The notes: generated by a model from the letters alone, not told the origin. DNA of 22,761 nt from a virus (IMGVR_UViG_3300017746_000181:1-22761); one strand, 5' to 3'. Shown: positions 1,113 to 16,117, counted from the first letter of the stretch. Numbers and translations: made by a program.

Positions 1113-1120
1113 TATTTTTG
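1113..1120 (+). promoter_or_regulatory. Bacteroidota-type -7 element TATTTTTG
   Basis: TATTTTTG followed by T matches the Bacteroidota housekeeping -7 consensus TAnnTTTG(Y) and lies in the 44-nt gap after the basic-protein block, 17 nt before the ATG at 1138. A TTG exists at 1100-1102, but only 10 nt upstream, too close for a usual -33 box. It would drive the long unit 1138-7185. Five more copies occur at other module boundaries, which strengthens the call. Confidence 0.55.
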
Positions 1121-1137
1121 TCATAAATAAAATTCTT

Positions 1138-1290
1138 ATGGACAAAGGTTTAGGAGATACTATTGAAAGAATCACAAAAGCTACTGGAATTAAGCAAGCA
1201 GTAGATTTCGTTGCAAAAAAAACAGGTAAACCATGTGGTTGTGGAGAGAGACGTGATAATTTAAATAGAATGTTTCCTTATAACAAATAA
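1138..1290 (+). CDS. Small conserved phage protein with C-G-C motif (50 aa)
   Basis: The ORF starts at an ATG in TTATG context and ends in TAA. The sequence GLGDTIERITKATGIKQAVD is followed by KPCGCGERRDNLNRMFPY. I recognise this family ('GLGDTIEKITKATGIK..., CGCxxRKExLNxxFPY') as a small protein widespread in Bacteroidota phages, including crAss-like ones; its function is not known. The CxC pair at residues 33-35 may bind metal or be redox-active (inference). It is the first gene after the promoter-like element at 1113 and lies 2 nt upstream of the next basic gene. Confidence 0.75.
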   Translation: MDKGLGDTIERITKATGIKQAVDFVAKKTGKPCGCGERRDNLNRMFPYNK

Positions 1291-1292
1291 TT

Positions 1293-1538
1293 ATGCTTAG
1301 TAGAACTGCTAGATATTATAGAGATAATCCTAAGGCTAGAATAAAGCATAGAAAATCTAGTGCAAAAGCACAAAAGAAAAAAGAAGCCGTAAGAAAAAGA
1401 GTTGAATGTAATTTATTTAATAGTAAAAATAAAAAATCTAAAAAAGGGGATAAGCTAGATTGTTCTCATAAAAAAGGTAAACTGGTTTTGGAATCTCAAA
1501 AAGCAAATAGAGCAAGAGGAGGAGGCAGTAAAAGATAA
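1293..1538 (+). CDS. Lysine/arginine-rich conserved phage protein (81 aa)
   Basis: It begins LSRTARYYRDNPKARIKHRKS and continues with a Lys/Arg-rich helix. A segment 'NLFNSKNKKSKKGDKLDCSHKKGKLVLESQ' style core (about 40-69) follows, then NRARGGGSKR at the end. The 'ARYYRxNPxARxKH...' start and 'D.SHK.G.....S...NR.R' pattern recur in small marine phage and cyanophage proteins of unknown role. The D-C-S-H motif is faintly like an HNH-type half-site, but no complete nuclease motif is present, so I do not call an enzyme. A highly basic pI suggests DNA or RNA contact (inference). It starts 2 nt after the preceding stop. Confidence 0.75.
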   Translation: MLSRTARYYRDNPKARIKHRKSSAKAQKKKEAVRKRVECNLFNSKNKKSKKGDKLDCSHKKGKLVLESQKANRARGGGSKR

Positions 1539-1542
1539 AATT

Positions 1543-1698
1543 ATGGACATTCAACAAATAAAAATATACGCCCTAAACACTTTTTCATTTACAGTTTCTT
1601 TTACTCAAACAGAAACCATTTTAAAGATAATATTATTACTCGTGTCTATTGGGTATACAATAACAAAATGGTATGAAACTCATAAACGTAATAAGTAG
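1543..1698 (+). CDS. Single-TM small membrane protein (51 aa), holin-like candidate
   Basis: The ATG lies in TTATG context. The N-terminal part is MDIQQIKIYALNTFSFTVSF with TQTE (22-25), followed by one hydrophobic segment, ILKIILLLVSIGYTITKW (26-43), and a basic tail YETHKRNK. Tiny proteins with an 'xxFTxxExxLKIILLLxSIGYTI.K' layout recur in Bacteroidota phage lysis or late regions. They are sometimes labelled holin or membrane protein, without proof. Its last 26 nt overlap the start of the exported gene at 1673, so translation may be coupled. A true 3-TM holin lies at 7209, so this could instead be an antiholin, pinholin-like or accessory membrane protein. Confidence 0.65.
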   Translation: MDIQQIKIYALNTFSFTVSFTQTETILKIILLLVSIGYTITKWYETHKRNK

Positions 1699-2128
1699 TC
1701 TTGTATTCTCAAGCATAGTATTCAGTCAAGACATAAGCATTAGTGATGTACAGAATAGTATTCAGTATGGTCCACTTGTTGGTAATAGATCTATAACCTT
1801 TGGTGTAAAAAATATACTAGAGGAAGTTGTACAGGATAAGGGTTATGATATTAACCCAAACAGCAAGGATAGTTTGTTTGTTGAGATTATATACTTTGGA
1901 AATAAAAGAACACAGACTACAGCTGCAATCTACACAAAAAAAGAAAATATAGTAGAGATTATTGCAATAGCTAGATATAAAAACAAGTCTGTAAAAGTTA
2001 AAGGAGTTGGCAAGGATATTAAATCTTCTTTTGTTATACTAAATGAAGAGGGTGGTTTCAAACAGTCAAGTGTTAGCACGGCTTTAAAAAAAATGTGTGA
2101 AAAGATTATAAAAAAATTAAAACTATGA
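1673..2128 (+). CDS. Exported small CsgG-fold-like protein (151 aa)
   Basis: A Sec signal peptide is clear (MKLINVISSLVFSSIVFSQ, predicted cut near S18-Q19), so the mature protein goes to the periplasm or outer membrane. There is no lipobox. The mature part shows an alpha/beta pattern: FGVKNILEEVVQ (43-54), strand LFVEIIYFG (68-76), strands VEIIAIARYKNKSVKVKGVG (94-113), then FKQSSVSTALKKMCEKIIKKL (129-149). The last segment closely parallels residues 207-231 of the CsgG-like protein at 4653 (F-x-Q-S-S-[VI]...K-K...). I infer a shortened relative of the CsgG/TolB-N-like fold. It overlaps the next gene by 4 nt (ATGA). Exact family and role are unproven. Confidence 0.7.
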   Translation: MKLINVISSLVFSSIVFSQDISISDVQNSIQYGPLVGNRSITFGVKNILEEVVQDKGYDINPNSKDSLFVEIIYFGNKRTQTTAAIYTKKENIVEIIAIARYKNKSVKVKGVGKDIKSSFVILNEEGGFKQSSVSTALKKMCEKIIKKLKL

Positions 2129-3720
2129 GAAAACTATTATTTTTATTACTTCCATTTATTTGTTTGTCTCAAGATTTGAAGCTTGACCATAGTTATACAA
2201 ACAGTCCTGACTTTCAAGTAGGAGACACTATTACAATAAAGTTTAATACAATACAGGTAACTGAAAATGTAAACCCTAATTTATATGTGTTTGATTATGA
2301 GTACAACAATAAGCTTTTACAAAAAATAGAACACAGATGGAAGGTTACTGACAACGAAACAAATACAAATGCACAAGTGTCTTTGAATCATTGGGACGGC
2401 TATAAATTTAACTTCTCTGATGATTATGACGAAAATGATTTAAGTGCTCAATATTCTAACGCTTGGGTTGGGACTGCTGACTCATATCCTAGTAACAGTG
2501 ATTGGTCTGTAGAAAGAATAACAATTCAAGATGGTGTTGGTATTACATATAGTAACACTTTAATTGAAATAGATTTTAAGATTAAAGACAAAATAAATAC
2601 TGATTATACAAACTACAATAATGTTACACATCTTAACTGGATGAGAGCAGAAGACAACTCTACTTCTACCTTGTATGATGTAGATGCAATGCAACAAAAG
2701 ATAACTCTTTCAGATGTTGAAGGAGGGGACGCTGGATCTGTAACTATCAATCTAAAAACAAGCAACGATAAACCAACACACTATAAGTACGATATATTAC
2801 AGAATGGCTCAAGTGTTGCTGACGGATATTTTGATGCAAACTCACAGGCTATTGTAAGTGGATTAGAAAATGATATTGAATACACTATAGACATAAAAGT
2901 AGATGATGAACTAGCTTCTGATTGGCTTGATGATGTAGCAACTGTTACAGATGTTTTTCTTGTATTTAAAGAAGCTATAGGAGCTGGAAGTTCTCCTGGC
3001 GGAACTACAAACACTTTTACACACTCTATACAGTTTCTTTTAGGAGAAGTAAACAATAGTGGTAATGTTGATTTTGATGATTCTTACGTGCTTTTAAGCC
3101 ATATAATGAACGAGAACATTAGTGAATGGTTTACAAGCTCTGAAAACGGATCTAAGAATGTTTGGGGAGAAAAGAATCAGTATGGATATTCTACAAATGA
3201 TTATTACTTTGGACAAAAGAAGCATTTTACTCCTACTGATGATACAAAGGTTTTTGATTTTGGACACGGTCTTATTGGTGATGTAGATTTTTCTCATTCA
3301 TTTGAGCCTATTGTTACTGAAACTCCTAAAGCTCAAACTGTAGCAGGTTATGCAGAAGATTTAGATTTAGATATTTCAACAAGCTTAGTTAATGGTAAGG
3401 TTGAAATGATTGTGAACATTGAAAAAGAAGACATTGCAGGTATGCAGTTTATTATTGAGTATGATAAATCAATACTAGAGTTTGAAGAAGTTAAATTTAA
3501 TACAGGAAATTTACTTACAAACTTTGCTTCAGAAAGAGAAAACAAAATATACTTTGGAAGTATTAGTGTAGAAAACAAAGAAAATATAAAGGTGGGTGAG
3601 CCATATAAGATTGTATTTAATCCAAAACAAACAATTACAAATACAGCTGGACTTGTTTATTTTAAAACAACCGACGCTGTAACTGATACAGGAAAAAAGA
3701 TAATTTTAAAAATAAAATAA
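2125..3720 (+). CDS. Secreted modular protein with cohesin-like and dockerin-like regions (531 aa)
   Basis: The signal peptide MRKLLFLLLPFICLSQ is followed by four visible parts. Residues 30-200 contain a beta domain starting FQVGDTITIKFN...NLYVFDYEYNN, cohesin-like. Residues 201-275 form an Ig/FnIII-like repeat (GSVTINLKTS...YTIDIKV). Residues 306-326 (LLGEVNNSGNVDFDDSYVLL) match a dockerin-type calcium loop, with a degenerate second copy at 383-393 (LIGDVDFSHSF). Residues 412-531 resemble another cohesin domain (GKVEMIVNIEKEDIAGMQFI, YDKSILEFEEVKF). Cohesin-dockerin pairs normally assemble extracellular complexes. In a phage late region the partner may be a sister protein or the host surface (inference). 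The gene overlaps both neighbours (ATGA, TAATG). The domain calls are by eye. Confidence 0.7.
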   Translation: MRKLLFLLLPFICLSQDLKLDHSYTNSPDFQVGDTITIKFNTIQVTENVNPNLYVFDYEYNNKLLQKIEHRWKVTDNETNTNAQVSLNHWDGYKFNFSDDYDENDLSAQYSNAWVGTADSYPSNSDWSVERITIQDGVGITYSNTLIEIDFKIKDKINTDYTNYNNVTHLNWMRAEDNSTSTLYDVDAMQQKITLSDVEGGDAGSVTINLKTSNDKPTHYKYDILQNGSSVADGYFDANSQAIVSGLENDIEYTIDIKVDDELASDWLDDVATVTDVFLVFKEAIGAGSSPGGTTNTFTHSIQFLLGEVNNSGNVDFDDSYVLLSHIMNENISEWFTSSENGSKNVWGEKNQYGYSTNDYYFGQKKHFTPTDDTKVFDFGHGLIGDVDFSHSFEPIVTETPKAQTVAGYAEDLDLDISTSLVNGKVEMIVNIEKEDIAGMQFIIEYDKSILEFEEVKFNTGNLLTNFASERENKIYFGSISVENKENIKVGEPYKIVFNPKQTITNTAGLVYFKTTDAVTDTGKKIILKIK

Positions 3721-4079
3721 TGAAAAAACTATTAATACTATTTTTCTTTATAAGTTGTTCGGATACGATTTATATAGAAAGACCTACACAAGAAGTTCCT
3801 GAAACTTTATTTATGCCACAGGCTGTAGGTTTAAAACTTGAAAGTTATATTGTTGAAGATAAAGTTAGAATTAACACTAAGCTACCACGAGATGGTAAGT
3901 ATAGGATTAAAATATTAGATTTTACAAATACAATAATAAGTCAAGAAATAATAACTGGAAAAGAAGGAGACAATATATTAAACATATATGTGAAGTCACT
4001 ACCCGTTAGTTCTTACACTGTGGAATTATATACAAAAAATAATATCTTTGTAGGAAGACAAAACTTTTCAATGAAATAA
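3720..4079 (+). CDS. Lipoprotein with T9SS-CTD-like beta domain (119 aa)
   Basis: MKKLLILFFFISC is a lipoprotein signal with the predicted lipidated Cys13, so the product should be anchored in the inner or outer membrane. The mature C-terminal half follows the strand order seen in type IX secretion C-terminal domains: GKYRIKILDFTNTIISQEI (about 59-77), then NILNIYVKSLPVSSYTVELY and FVGRQNFSMK. That resembles the classic 'ixIyDxxGxxV...L..L..GxYxvxl' pattern. It could simply share that Ig-like fold; a lipoprotein would not normally also use T9SS. It starts at the TAATG overlap with the secreted modular protein and is therefore probably co-translated with it. Function unknown; an outer-membrane partner role is inferred from context. 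Confidence 0.7.
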   Translation: MKKLLILFFFISCSDTIYIERPTQEVPETLFMPQAVGLKLESYIVEDKVRINTKLPRDGKYRIKILDFTNTIISQEIITGKEGDNILNIYVKSLPVSSYTVELYTKNNIFVGRQNFSMK

Positions 4080-4089
4080 ATTATAAATT

Positions 4090-4284
4090 ATGAAAACAGT
4101 TTTATTACAAATTTGGAATGAACAAATGAGCGATTATTTAGTTTTAGATTACATCCTTAAAATTGTTGCTTATGGTTTGTTAGTTATAGCTTTTTCAGGT
4201 ATTAGTAAGATGATATTTGAAATTATTACAAACCCTTCTCAATTTGATAATGTTCAGTTTGGAATATTTGATTATTGTTGTTAG
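4090..4284 (+). CDS. Small one-TM membrane protein (64 aa)
   Basis: The ATG is in TTATG context, 10 nt after the preceding stop. The hydrophobic stretch YILKIVAYGLLVIAFSGIS (about 21-39) is one transmembrane helix, preceded by a short hydrophilic segment and followed by ISKMIFEIITNPSQFDNVQFG and a Cys-Cys end. No family is recognised. Together with the next two genes it forms a compact run of membrane and lipoprotein genes in the lysis region, so an accessory holin or antiholin role is possible (inference). The stop is 1 nt before the next start. Confidence 0.6.
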   Translation: MKTVLLQIWNEQMSDYLVLDYILKIVAYGLLVIAFSGISKMIFEIITNPSQFDNVQFGIFDYCC

Positions 4285-4285
4285 T

Positions 4286-4516
4286 ATGAAAGAAATAAAA
4301 AATCAAATAATAGCAACTATAGGGTTAATTATAACTGCAGCTGGTGGTCTATTTATAGCAAACATGGAATCTATATTTAGCCCAGAAGATGATTCACCTC
4401 CACCATCAATGGAGCAAACCATATCAATACCACCTGGAGTTGTTAAAGACACTTTAGTTATTACAAAAACGGTTATACAAAAACCTAAAAAGAAAGAAAG
4501 AGAAATAGATTGGTGA
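4286..4516 (+). CDS. Inner-membrane anchored periplasmic protein, candidate i-spanin (76 aa)
   Basis: I choose the ATG at 4286, one nt after the upstream stop, over the in-frame ATG at 4217, which would add 23 residues read through the previous gene. The product has an N-terminal TM helix (IIATIGLIITAAGGLFIA, 8-25) and a periplasmic tail with SPPPSMEQ, an IPPGVVKDTLVITKTV stretch and KPKKKEREIDW. The next gene is a tiny Pro-rich lipoprotein overlapping by 4 nt (GTGA). An inner-membrane anchored protein overlapping a small proline-rich lipoprotein is the usual arrangement of Rz/Rz1-type two-component spanins, which fuse inner and outer membranes during lysis. The tail is short and lacks a long coiled coil, so the call is tentative. 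Confidence 0.6.
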   Translation: MKEIKNQIIATIGLIITAAGGLFIANMESIFSPEDDSPPPSMEQTISIPPGVVKDTLVITKTVIQKPKKKEREIDW

Positions 4517-4656
4517 AAAAGATATTAATGCTATTTGTTTTTATATGCAGTTGTGGGGTGTGTAAACCGCCTCCACCATCAACAGGTCCTTGGCTTGATG
4601 AACCTATAAAATCAGATTCATTATCTTATACAAAGCCAATTAAGTTATTAAAATGA
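4513..4656 (+). CDS. Tiny proline-rich lipoprotein, candidate o-spanin (47 aa)
   Basis: A GTG start overlaps the upstream stop as GTGA. The peptide is MKKILMLFVFICSCGVCKPPPPSTGPW..., a signal with lipobox I-C-S-C (lipidated Cys14) followed at once by PPPPSTGP and a short tail to LLK. It is about the size of Rz1-type o-spanins, which are short, proline-rich outer-membrane lipoproteins encoded overlapping their inner-membrane partner. It ends ATGA into the CsgG-like gene at 4653. The extra Cys12 and Cys17 could form disulfides that stabilise dimers, as seen in some spanins (inference). This gene is easily missed because of its size and GTG start. Confidence 0.6.
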   Translation: MKKILMLFVFICSCGVCKPPPPSTGPWLDEPIKSDSLSYTKPIKLLK

Positions 4657-5372
4657 AAAATTATATATTATGTGCGATATTTGTATTGGTTGCGGACTTT
4701 GTTTCTAGTCAGGTTATAGGCAAGACTTCGACAGAAGACTATGTTGCTAGCTTTGAAACTAGAGAATCTATATGGAGTGTACCAGAGTATAATGGTGACC
4801 CTGTATCTGTAGCTCTTTTAAACATTGGAGTTACTGAAGAAATATTAAATCAATATCCTGAACTTGGAGATTATAGAGTGGGACTTGGTTTGACAAACAT
4901 TACTGTGGCTTTTTTGGATGAAACGTTTCGTTTTGAGTTTGTAGAAACAAAGGATGAGATAAAAGATAGAATGATAAAACAGTTTAAGGCCAGTGAAAAG
5001 GGCTTTACAGCCAATGTTATAAATCCTATAGGTAAGATAGTTTTAGCTAAATACTTTTGTTATATAGAAGTATATGACTTTAGTATATCAGAAGATGAAA
5101 CTATAAACTTAAAAGACGGTATTAAAAATAAATTAGTAACAAGATTAGGTCTTCAGGTAAAGCTTGTAGATTCAGAAACAGGAACATACATGACTGGCTC
5201 TGGTTTAGGTAAGGCAACGACTACAAGAGAATTGACTTTATTAAATAATGAAAACCTAGAGGATGTTAAGTTTAATCAATCTTCTATCGGAACTTCTACA
5301 AAAAAAGCTTTAGAAACAGCAGTAGCTAAAGTTGTAAAAAGAATGATTAGAAAAAGAATATTTGATCATTAA
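4653..5372 (+). CDS. CsgG-like outer-membrane secretion channel protein (239 aa)
   Basis: A Sec signal (MKNYILCAIFVLVADFVSSQ) precedes a mature part that follows the CsgG layout: strand VSVALLNIGV (51-60), helix-strand region LTNITVAFLDETFRFEFVE, helix DEIKDRMIKQFK, strand KIVLAKYFCYIEVYDFSI (128-145), then LGLQVKLVDSETGTYMTGSG (165-184), which matches the CsgG signature 'LRVVxxxTGEIxxSxxxS'. It closes with helix SSIGTSTKKALETAVAKVVK (210-229). CsgG forms a nonameric lipoprotein channel for curli subunits. Length (239) is close to the E. coli protein (about 277 with signal). Odd: no lipobox cysteine is seen. The setting among spanin-like genes, a barrel protein and the endolysin suggests an outer-membrane pore used late in infection (inference). 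Confidence 0.72.
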   Translation: MKNYILCAIFVLVADFVSSQVIGKTSTEDYVASFETRESIWSVPEYNGDPVSVALLNIGVTEEILNQYPELGDYRVGLGLTNITVAFLDETFRFEFVETKDEIKDRMIKQFKASEKGFTANVINPIGKIVLAKYFCYIEVYDFSISEDETINLKDGIKNKLVTRLGLQVKLVDSETGTYMTGSGLGKATTTRELTLLNNENLEDVKFNQSSIGTSTKKALETAVAKVVKRMIRKRIFDH

Positions 5373-6727
5373 TGAATCGGTTATTGTTTATGCTGCTTTT
5401 TTCTTGTAGCGCATATTCACAGGTTCTTGTGCAATCATTTTCAGATAGATGTACAGGAGAAATTAAAACAGTTACAATACAAATGCAGGGATACACTACT
5501 GTATCTTTCTATAATAGAACTAAAACTTTTACAGCAAACGATTTTTATAGCGGAGCATTAAGAACATGGATGGAGCAAACATACGCATGGTGGTATGCTT
5601 TATCAGCATGTTCTACAGCTCAAACAACACAAACAACAACTCAAACATCTACATCAAATACAAATACTGATTCTAGCGGTTCAACTGATAATTCAGGTGG
5701 TAGTTCAGACTCTGGAGGAGATTCTGGGGGAGATAGTGGAGGGGGAGATAGCGATGATAATGGAGGTGGTGACTCTGATGATGGTGGTGGAGATAGTGAC
5801 GATAATGGAGGGGATAGTGATGATGATGGGGGTAACGATGACTCTGATGATTCTGACGAAAGTAACGATGACTCTGAAGAAGAAGAACAAAAAGAAGAAG
5901 AAAAAGAAGAGGAAAAGGAAGAGGAAAAAGAAGAAGAAGAAGAAGAAGAAAAAGAAGAATCAGAAGAAGAAGATGAGGAAGAGGAAGAAAAAGAAGAAAA
6001 AAAGAAAAATACAAATCCTATAATAATATCTGCCAATGTCATGAGAATGTCCGGTTTAGATGGTGCCGCTAATCAAGTTGTAAGTTTTGGTTTTGCTCAA
6101 ACATCTATGAATGGAGAGTTTAATTATTCTGCTAATATGATGTTATGGGACAATCTAAAGCAGATAAGCTTGAGTGGTTCAAGAGGACATGTTTTTCATA
6201 GGTATGATAAAAAAGTCCCTGTTATTATTAAAGAAGACGGAAAAGAATATGTGTTTGGACATTTTTATGACAAAGGAAGTATAGCTAACGTACAAACACT
6301 TTCAGTAGGTTTGATGTACATGTACGGTGTTTATAATTTATCTACAGGAATAAGTAATGTTTATATAGGTCAGAAAGAAAATAAATGGAAGGGTGTTGTT
6401 GGAGGATTTTCCATTTCAAACAATATACTCTATAGTAAAGGAGAGTTTAACATTATGCCGTCCTTAGTTTTTTTTGGATTAAAACCCATATCTTTGAAAA
6501 GATTTACAGTATCACCAATGTTAGCTACTGCATTAACACCAATTAGTTACAGTAGTTTAGATAGTGGTTTTGTATTTAATAAAGATGTTTTATTTGTTGG
6601 AGGTTCAAACTTTGATTTTACTTTAACTAAAAACTTTAGAGCTAATATAGGTTTTAATGTTGCAAAAAGTACAAATGAATTTCCTTTAACATATTCAATA
6701 ACAATAGGAGGTAAATTTAAATTATGA
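5372..6727 (+). CDS. Outer-membrane barrel-like protein with long acidic linker (451 aa)
   Basis: Signal peptide MNRLLFMLLFSCSAYSQ. Residues 18-80 form a small domain with C27 and C80 and an aromatic helix (RTWMEQTYAWWYALSAC). Residues 81-212 are low complexity: Thr/Gln, then Gly/Ser/Asp repeats (GGDSDD), then Glu/Lys runs. Residues 215-451 alternate polar and hydrophobic residues in short strands (VVSFGFAQTSMNGEFNYSANM, SVGLMYMYGVYNLSTGISNV, FRANIGFNVAK, YSITIGGKFKL), typical of an 8-12-strand outer-membrane barrel. The Asp-rich part could bind calcium. It overlaps the upstream gene (TAATG) and the endolysin (ATGA). A role in the outer membrane during lysis or superinfection exclusion is inferred; I recognise no named family. 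Confidence 0.7.
   Translation: MNRLLFMLLFSCSAYSQVLVQSFSDRCTGEIKTVTIQMQGYTTVSFYNRTKTFTANDFYSGALRTWMEQTYAWWYALSACSTAQTTQTTTQTSTSNTNTDSSGSTDNSGGSSDSGGDSGGDSGGGDSDDNGGGDSDDGGGDSDDNGGDSDDDGGNDDSDDSDESNDDSEEEEQKEEEKEEEKEEEKEEEEEEEKEESEEEDEEEEEKEEKKKNTNPIIISANVMRMSGLDGAANQVVSFGFAQTSMNGEFNYSANMMLWDNLKQISLSGSRGHVFHRYDKKVPVIIKEDGKEYVFGHFYDKGSIANVQTLSVGLMYMYGVYNLSTGISNVYIGQKENKWKGVVGGFSISNNILYSKGEFNIMPSLVFFGLKPISLKRFTVSPMLATALTPISYSSLDSGFVFNKDVLFVGGSNFDFTLTKNFRANIGFNVAKSTNEFPLTYSITIGGKFKL
5612..6007 (+). repeat. Low-complexity tract with (GAA/GAG)n polypurine run
   Basis: This stretch encodes the Thr/Gln, Gly/Ser/Asp and Glu/Lys linker of the barrel protein. From about 5876 to 6009 the + strand is almost purely purine, built of GAA, GAG, AAA and AAG triplets. 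Such mirror-like polypurine runs can form triplex DNA and slip during replication, changing length in multiples of three without breaking the frame. Several spurious open frames on both strands here are a by-product of the repeat. Confidence 0.85.
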
Positions 6728-7185
6728 AAAATATAAGTGAACACATTAGTTACAAAGAAGCAATAAGAAGTACAACAGCTTTACGTTTAGGTATTGACAA
6801 TACTCCAAACGAGTACCAGCTTCAAAATATGGAGTTGATTGCAGAAAAAATATTCGAGCCATTAAGAAAGGTTGCAAATGGTCCAATAAAAATAAATTCG
6901 TTTATGAGGGTTGAAAAGTTGAATCAAGCAATTGGGGGGTCGAGCCGATCACAGCATTGCCAGGGAAGAGCGATTGACCTGGATGATACCTATGGCTATA
7001 TGACGAACGCTGAGATGTATAATTACATTAAAGAAAATTTAGACTTCGACCAAATCATATGGGAATTTGGGACGGATGAGAATCCAGACTGGGTACATGT
7101 AAGTTATGTAGATGCCGATTCAAACAGAAAAAGATGCTTGAAGGCATACAAAGACAATGGAAAGACAGCTTACAAAGTCATATAA
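6724..7185 (+). CDS. Peptidase M15-type endolysin (153 aa)
   Basis: The core matches Peptidase_M15_3 (D-Ala-D-Ala carboxypeptidase-like): INSFMRVEKLNQAIGGSSRSQHCQGRAIDLD (57-87) with zinc ligands H78 and D85, and IIWEFG...DWVHVSY (111-128) with catalytic E114 and third zinc ligand H125. It would cleave peptide cross-links of peptidoglycan at the end of infection. Length is normal for single-domain phage M15 lysins, and there is no signal peptide, so release through a holin is expected; the 3-TM holin follows at 7209. It overlaps the upstream barrel gene by ATGA. Codon use around 6930-7020 (CGA, CTG, TCG, GCG) is markedly more GC-rich than its surroundings. Confidence 0.9.
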   Translation: MKNISEHISYKEAIRSTTALRLGIDNTPNEYQLQNMELIAEKIFEPLRKVANGPIKINSFMRVEKLNQAIGGSSRSQHCQGRAIDLDDTYGYMTNAEMYNYIKENLDFDQIIWEFGTDENPDWVHVSYVDADSNRKRCLKAYKDNGKTAYKVI

Positions 7186-7194
7186 GTTTTTAAG

Positions 7195-7202
7195 TATATT
7201 TG
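7195..7202 (+). promoter_or_regulatory. Bacteroidota-type -7 element TATATTTG before holin
   Basis: TATATTTG plus C lies between the endolysin stop and the holin ATG at 7209, only 6 nt ahead of that ATG. The upstream AAG extends the match to the AGTATnTTTGY form shared with the elements at 9899, 16129 and 22551. If the initiation site is at the normal distance, the transcript would begin at or next to the start codon, giving a leaderless holin message. Confidence 0.55.
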
Positions 7203-7208
7203 CGTATT

Positions 7209-7667
7209 ATGTCAGATAAAAAGAAATTTAAAGACTCTACTGTAGGAAAACTATTGTTTGGAGCAGCTTCAATAATAAACCCGACACTAGGAAAAGTTTT
7301 AAGTGGAGTAAGTTCGCCTGCTGATGCAATAGCCGCTATAGGTAAATCAGACGTCAGTGGTGAAGAAAAAATAAAATTACAACAACTTATATTTGAACAA
7401 CAAAATAAAGAAATGGAAGCTGTGTCTTCAAGGTGGAAGGCAGACCAAATGAGCGATTCATGGCTTTCAAAGAATGTACGTCCTTTAGTTTTAGTGTGGT
7501 GTATAGTTGTTTTTAGTTTTGCAGGTATATTAGATAGTGTTGAGTCAATACCATTTCATATTGGAGAAACTTGGAATGATACTTTTGAAAAAGTAATGAT
7601 GAGTGTTGTTTTAGCATATTTTGGTGGAAGGACAACTGAAAAAGCTACAAGCTTATTTAAAAAATAA
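7209..7667 (+). CDS. Holin of the 3-TM family (152 aa)
   Basis: The ATG at 7209 in TTATG context is preferred over an in-frame TTG at 7200 that is part of the promoter-like element. The protein matches the Holin_3TMs family layout: an N-terminal amphipathic stretch (VGKLLFGAASIINPTLGKVL), a charged helix ending EAVSSRWKADQMSDSWLSKNVRP (70-92), TM helix LVLVWCIVVFSFAGILDSV (93-111), and a second TM with VMMSVVLAYFGGRTTEKA (129-146). 'SDSWLSKNVRPL' and 'AYFGGRTxEK' are family hallmarks. Holins permeabilise the inner membrane to release endolysin. The endolysin is the gene directly upstream. The last base of its stop is the first of the next start (TAATG). Confidence 0.87.
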   Translation: MSDKKKFKDSTVGKLLFGAASIINPTLGKVLSGVSSPADAIAAIGKSDVSGEEKIKLQQLIFEQQNKEMEAVSSRWKADQMSDSWLSKNVRPLVLVWCIVVFSFAGILDSVESIPFHIGETWNDTFEKVMMSVVLAYFGGRTTEKATSLFKK

Positions 7668-15511: not shown

Positions 15512-16117
15512 ATGAAAATAATATTTTGCATACCTGGAAGAAATTTCAGTAATAACTTTTTAACTTCATGGACAAGACTTTTAAAGTATTGTCATAAAAA
15601 TAATATTCAAGCAGAACTTAGTAATGGATATGTTTCTATTGTACATTTAGCTAGATATTCCTGTCTTATGATAAACCCTGAAAGTACTTGTAACATTTGC
15701 TTGAATCCATTTAGTGAAACTACTTATGATTATATAATGTGGATTGATTCTGATATGGTATTTAACCCTTTACATTTTCAGAAATTATTAGATGCGAAAA
15801 AACAAGTTATAACAGGTTTGTATAGAATAGAAAGCTCTAATGTTTACGGCTGTTATGATCTTAATAACAAAAGAATAGACGTGGATTACCTACAAAACAA
15901 TTCAGGCGTTATAGAGGTTTCTTTTGCAGCTATGGGTTTTATGCTTATTAAAAATGGGGTATATGAAGAAATGCCTTTTCCTTACTTCAGTGTTCCAGGA
16001 GAAAGTGGTATGCTATCAGAAACTTTAAGCTTTTGTCAAAACCTGTCTAAAGCAAATATTCCAATACACGCACACCTAGATGTAGTTGTAGGTCACGAAA
16101 AGCCTATGATAATATAA
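15512..16117 (+). CDS. GT2-like (GT-A fold) glycosyltransferase (201 aa)
   Basis: The strand KIIFCIPGR opens the protein, and IMWIDSDMVF (75-84) carries a D-x-D motif (D79-S80-D81) for metal and nucleotide-sugar binding. GFMLIKNGVYE (142-152) and GESGMLSETLSFC (163-175) match the late acceptor-side motifs, and VGHEK (193-197) matches the C-terminal His of phage GT2-like enzymes. The enzyme is compact, as is usual in phages, with no membrane segment. Its place directly after the fibre and appendage genes suggests it glycosylates virion proteins or modifies host surface sugars; which one cannot be told. It is the last gene of the unit before the promoter-like element at 16129. Confidence 0.82.
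   Translation: MKIIFCIPGRNFSNNFLTSWTRLLKYCHKNNIQAELSNGYVSIVHLARYSCLMINPESTCNICLNPFSETTYDYIMWIDSDMVFNPLHFQKLLDAKKQVITGLYRIESSNVYGCYDLNNKRIDVDYLQNNSGVIEVSFAAMGFMLIKNGVYEEMPFPYFSVPGESGMLSETLSFCQNLSKANIPIHAHLDVVVGHEKPMII

Follow-up and report, generated by a model that had tools for sequence, protein, structure and literature searches.

The 22.8-kb window, meaning the whole stretch of DNA analysed, is a viral contig with terminase and portal genes akin to those of flavobacterial phages; its TerL is 63% identical to that of MW202828 and 43% to those of the elemo phages. From 1543 to 7185, every gene overlaps or nearly touches its neighbour. This block runs from a one-TM protein (TM51) through a cassette, A to H, to an M15 endolysin gene, and its features are as follows.

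1113..1120, + strand: TATTTTTG, Bacteroidota-type -7 element 25 nt before the ATG at 1138; likely promoter of the 1138-7185 unit
1543..1698, + strand: TM51, one-TM protein, holin candidate; homologue of elemoA gp39, in 15 loci
1673..2128, + strand: A, exported periplasmic protein, Lipoprotein_16/YajG-like (Sec signal, PF03923); 55 of 58 loci
2125..3720, + strand: B, large exported surface-type protein with a C-terminal cohesin domain (Pfam Cohesin); 58 of 58 loci
3720..4079, + strand: C, lipoprotein with a DUF3244/T9SS-CTD-like Ig domain (lipobox, Por_Secre_tail matches); 48 of 58 loci
4090..4284, + strand: D, small TM protein, variably present; 18 of 58 loci
4286..4516, + strand: E, N-terminally anchored inner-membrane protein with a periplasmic tail ending in Trp; 52 of 58 loci
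4513..4656, + strand: F, 47-aa Pro-rich lipoprotein, probable stub; not conserved
4653..5372, + strand: G, exported protein of predicted CsgG/PelC fold (AF2 and Foldseek), from a virus-specific family
5372..6727, + strand: H, Cys-containing N-domain, acidic low-complexity linker and predicted C-terminal outer-membrane barrel (AF2 model)
6724..7185, + strand: M15 endolysin (PF08291, phrog_894)
7195..7202, + strand: TATATTTG, intergenic promoter-like element of the holin gene (7209)
7209..7667, + strand: holin (phrog_3427)

The original prediction placed six exported proteins here (A, B, C, F, G and H), most of them tied by overlapping junctions into one unit ending in the endolysin gene. The coordinates were correct, as was a plausible export signal at the N-terminus of all six, and the overlaps were present: TM51/A -26 nt, A/B -4, B/C -1, E/F -4, F/G -4, G/H -1 and H/M15 -4. 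E was missing from that count, though it occurs in 52 of 58 loci.

Six intergenic TANNTTTG sites were found in the window, compared to 0.28 expected from shuffled intergenic sequence. Near the genes of 1543-7185, the only intergenic Bacteroidota-type -7 elements were those at 1113 and 7195. Because one TANNTTTG site precedes 1138 and the next precedes 7209, 1138-7185 reads as one operon with the M15 endolysin gene last, and the holin gene reads as lying under its own promoter-like element. A sigma-70 promoter and terminator scan gave nothing above shuffles. Upstream of the cassette (93-1538), genes 93, 803, 1138 and 1293 line up and encode small basic proteins rich in Lys and Cys, relatives of which are present in the elemo and MW202828 phages.

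Predicted products of the cassette

Protein A carries a Sec signal in 63 of 74 members and shows a weak Lipoprotein_16/YajG (PF03923) match in 18 of 23 (best 4e-6); one member weakly matches CsgG, and A and G have a short C-terminal similarity in common. Foldseek searches with the AlphaFold2 model of G (pTM 0.66) returned the CsgG structures 6l7c and 6l7a first and then PelC (E 4e-8 to 1e-6, TM about 0.45; for 6l7c, E 4e-8 and TM 0.45), with GNA1162 also among the matches after CsgG. The model has one long predicted hairpin (134-173) and a second that is short and of low confidence. Assignment of G to CsgG by sequence was rejected: no Pfam or PDB sequence match was obtained, and PF03783 (CsgG) matched 0 of 34 family members at E<=0.1 and nothing in the window. 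G of the window has a Sec-type signal (...VSSQ) and no lipobox. Seventy of 84 members were classed as SPI, and in those flagged with a lipobox the cysteine lies inside the signal, not at the N-terminus as a lipidated cysteine would. As most members have a Sec signal and no lipobox, and none matches PF03783, G counts as a protein of CsgG fold and only as a candidate pore; of the "CsgG-like pore" originally proposed, "CsgG-like" was right for the fold.

Curli (type VIII) modules comprising CsgG, CsgF, CsgA/B and FecR are encoded by pelagiphages (PMC9599517, PMC7029224) and by Melnitz (PMC9004378). Like these, the cassette is a phage-encoded operon that includes a secretion protein of CsgG fold whose purpose is unproven. 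Unlike them, it has a G protein without CsgG Pfam match or lipobox, and homologues of CsgF, CsgE and curlin were not found: none of the ten products encoded in 1543-7185 gave such a Pfam or PHROG match. Its partners are instead a predicted barrel, a cohesin protein, a lipoprotein and a putative inner-membrane tether. Phage CsgG modules are already known; this set departs from them in all its partners and has no sequence similarity to CsgG models.

A barrel-like protein had also been proposed, and structure prediction agreed. Residues 217-450 of H were modelled by AF2 as a barrel of about 14 strands (12-14; pLDDT ~87), using an alignment with no immuto phage row. The linker ahead of it spans 118 residues, of which 59 are Asp or Glu, and the last residue of the protein is L or F in 78 of 81 members. 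The nearest PDB folds were KdgM, FapF and NanC (E 3e-7 to 2e-6); FapF was among the top matches (TM (target) 0.47-0.58), with KdgM and NanC scoring equally. FapF also has an N-terminal domain and a linker. H differs from FapF and from the 12-strand porins KdgM and NanC in having no sequence match to them, about 14 strands, a long acidic linker and a Cys-containing N-domain. The acidic tract is encoded in the window (5640-6010) by GAA and 45-nt tandem repeats, and it differs greatly in length among relatives, whose H proteins measure about 368-632 aa.

B of the window (531 aa) matched Pfam Cohesin at 26.2 bits, above the cut-off of 24.1, and has no C-terminal T9SS type A sorting domain. The B proteins of relatives carry cohesin, PA14/GLEYA or T9SS-CTD domains, and the T9SS type A sorting domain scored above cut-off in L109, L118, L126, L127 and immuto gp015. 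The cohesin domain, with the sorting domain of related clades, points to surface display and not to rupture alone. Protein C has a lipobox in 67 of 71 members and a Por_Secre_tail match in 16 of 24 (best 1.3e-7; window C only E 0.064). Itself CTD-like, C was found mostly where B has no CTD, and some B proteins bear the sorting domain in clades without C, suggesting that B and C together may do the job of a single fused protein of other clades. At one locus (L046:11160-13787) a further protein of B type has PA14 and GLEYA domains and is an adhesin-like form. T9SS type A sorting domains are also borne by proteins of the Bacteroidetes phage Cryophage, and one of these proteins has PA14 (PMC7468147); unlike in the window, no CsgG-fold or barrel cassette is described there.

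E starts at the ATG at 4286 and is 76 aa long; it has one membrane segment, at the N-terminus, followed by a periplasmic tail. Its last residue was Trp in 69 of 69 members, preceded by a variable, disordered-looking stretch. F was rejected as a core part, and its place in the predicted set fell: it is not conserved, and its family matches fall at the N-terminus of lipoproteins of ~216 aa that are encoded downstream of M15 in L056, L057, L061 and L104, so F looks like a short stub. A secreted DNA/RNA non-specific endonuclease (PF01223) is encoded in or near the cassette in 13 of 58 loci; such a gene was also noted at L089:8189-8797 and in 21 other loci, and gp012, beside the immuto set, is of this type.

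Distribution and gene order

Searches with the G alignment found the gene in at least 398 IMG/VR contigs, compared to 47 contigs with a single sequence. Only two contigs matched among 84,980 species genomes: one of 254 kb (L052), with a terminase on the same contig, and one of 12.6 kb (L051), where the cassette neighbours an endolysin gene of the GH19 family. G therefore looks virus-specific, and a host-derived origin of the gene set was rejected on the same grounds. Among 50,697 phage records, the only named phages with G were the immuto phages (4 records), and A, B and H gave no matches. In the immuto phages, homologues of E, G, H and A cluster with the cohesin gene gp015, which bears a T9SS sorting domain. 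The hundreds of cassette-bearing viruses probably have flavobacteria and related bacteria as hosts. No account of this gene set turned up in literature searches.

Loci were studied from the best 80 of the 398 G contigs, with ORFs called by a simple custom script by which the starts of small genes may be wrong; 58 loci had enough flank. Loss of gene order in related phages had been named beforehand as grounds for abandoning the prediction. Order was strongly kept: it was exactly A-B-C-E-G-H in 37 of the 58, the remainder being variants, and the core genes lay on one strand in all 58. B and H were present in every locus, A in 55, E in 52 and C in 48.

These data also bear on a rival reading, that the exported proteins are part of the virion or associated with release, or that they form a general moron sitting in a permissive late region. 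Genes at the flanks of the window look structural and accessory genes are common in lysis regions, as this explanation would have it. We consider it very unlikely, since Sec or lipoprotein signals occur in nearly all members of the exported families and core order was maintained in genomes that differ greatly, with contigs of up to 178 kb. Lambda Lom and Bor are likewise outer-membrane proteins encoded near lysis genes; they are single prophage-expressed genes and not a conserved multi-gene block as here.

Association with lysis genes

The product of 6724 matched PF08291 (6e-14; M15_3 domain 52.4 bits, cut-off 23.2) and phrog_894 endolysin (2e-26), and that of 7209, proposed as a holin, indeed matched holin family phrog_3427 (E 4.8e-18). 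Four endolysin families were sought in 49 whole contigs drawn from the best 80 G matches, not a random sample. In 39 of the 45 contigs with a match, G had an endolysin gene no more than 5 kb away, compared to 7.5 expected under uniform placement with relatedness ignored. The four families are mutually unrelated (Amidase_2 in 11, phrog_181/GH19 in 11, M15 in 10 and phrog_3000 in 7). In the other six contigs the nearest recognised endolysin was more than 14 kb away; the link is therefore strong and not absolute.

Endolysin placement varied: the gene could follow downstream, lie upstream on the opposite strand, or sit within the cassette ahead of G. On the G tree, the type and position of the neighbouring endolysin required 15 changes (least possible 6, shuffled mean 38), and most loci retained a nearby lysis gene despite these at least 15 changes. 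The proposed association of the exported set with lysis genes thus held across four unrelated families and many rearrangements. Late co-regulation alone could account for linkage this close. The cassette's neighbours in the immuto-like group are not lysis genes; there, ribonucleotide reductase lies on one side and thioredoxin on the other. In 36 loci (e.g. L014 and L071) the cassette is flanked by nrdA/nrdB, which encode ribonucleotide reductase, on either side and either strand.

The persistent link to holin and endolysin genes raises the possibility of outer-membrane rupture, which we consider somewhat unlikely. E in the inner membrane, A and G in the periplasm and H and C in the outer membrane would bridge the envelope and, after the endolysin removes peptidoglycan, destabilise the outer membrane in the spanins' stead. 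Croceibacter and Bacteroides phages are among those reported as spanin-less, and an outer-membrane protein serving as o-spanin has been raised as a possibility (PMC6139136); the authors of Melnitz proposed a lysis role for phage CsgGF (PMC9004378). Our scan recognised no coiled-coil spanin in the window or other M15-type loci, its only match in the window and its near twin L053 being the 7209 holin. It found no coiled coil in E of the window, so that E does not fit a two-component i-spanin; F is a lipoprotein, as an o-spanin would be, but is not conserved.

Several results argue against rupture. By a crude scan, spanin-like coiled-coil genes lie by the endolysin in about a dozen cassette loci. 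According to a recent survey, the spanins of Bacteroidetes phages are unimolecular only (PMC12596118), and two North Sea flavophages have candidate u-spanins (PMC8776804). In elemoA, the TM51 homologue gp39 directly overlaps the M15-type carboxypeptidase gene gp38; elemo phages have this TM51-M15 pair without the cassette, and cultured elemoA gave no G match. Nor would rupture need a 531-aa cohesin protein. Like spanins (Rz/Rz1, u-spanins), the cassette is lysis-linked and has inner- and outer-membrane parts; unlike them, it has more parts, a predicted barrel, a surface protein and an E without coiled coil, and it coexists with spanin-like genes in some phages. The original prediction of an outer-membrane opening or remodelling device acting with lysis is partly supported: its lysis link holds, and an opening role is possible. 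An undescribed envelope-spanning machine of Bacteroidota phages, in which tether, CsgG-fold rings and barrel would do the outer-membrane lysis step, replacing or alongside spanins, is unlikely. Small endolysin-adjacent proteins with a signal peptide and coiled coil, several also with a C-terminal TM, were seen at L071:12051, L083:12432, L097:12727 and elsewhere and are possible spanins.

Proposed role at the host envelope

We tentatively favour an envelope module that is specific to phages, is expressed together with the lysis genes and would assemble, in the outer membrane of the host, a complex for secretion and display. This reading is plausible because gene order is one-stranded in 58 loci with a virus-only distribution, and because an endolysin lies within 5 kb in 39 of 45 contigs across the four families and at least 15 switches. 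In the window, moreover, the cassette sits exactly between TM51 and M15, while the elemoA pair overlaps directly. The predicted CsgG/PelC fold of G, the inclusion of the amyloid-secretion pore FapF among the matches to the H barrel, the cohesin, PA14/GLEYA or T9SS-CTD domains of B in relatives, and the occurrence of the CTD-like C mostly where B lacks a CTD also argue for it. Against it are the short hairpins of G, whose model is only moderate, and the immuto-like placement away from lysis genes.

We infer assembly, export of B by the module, timing and purpose as follows. A and G, of CsgG/YajG-type fold, would form rings, periplasmic or bound to the outer membrane. H would insert as a barrel, its acidic linker lying in the periplasm or threading the complex, and E may tether the complex to the inner membrane via its C-terminal Trp. 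Lipoprotein C would anchor or sort B, and B, a cohesin-type adhesin, would reach the cell surface, in some clades probably via the host T9SS. The net effect would be a host surface remodelled in the last stage of infection.

By superinfection exclusion or receptor masking, B and H might instead hide or obstruct the receptors that phages use late in infection, and progeny would be kept off debris. Exclusion has been suggested for pelagiphage curli (PMC9599517; also discussed in PMC7029224) and for Cryophage, with its T9SS cargo (PMC7468147). The adhesin domains of the surface-type proteins are consistent with it, and the secreted PF01223 nuclease found in or near the cassette could cut incoming DNA. 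It is a doubtful alternative, as genes coupled to lysis should be expressed late, at a stage where exclusion brings little benefit, and a search of an anti-phage defence library gave chance-level hits only, with no defence or exclusion match.

Little is known of the way Bacteroidota phages get through the outer membrane, and several appear in lists of phages lacking spanins (PMC6139136). This exported block, being conserved, virus-specific and tied to lysis genes, offers a testable candidate for remodelling of the envelope at the lysis stage. It occurs in hundreds of contigs of aquatic viruses, and the cultured immuto phages hold most of it, making a laboratory system possible. Elsewhere in the window, a glycosyltransferase-like ORF (15512-16117), named by inspection only, lies between tail-type and packaging genes.
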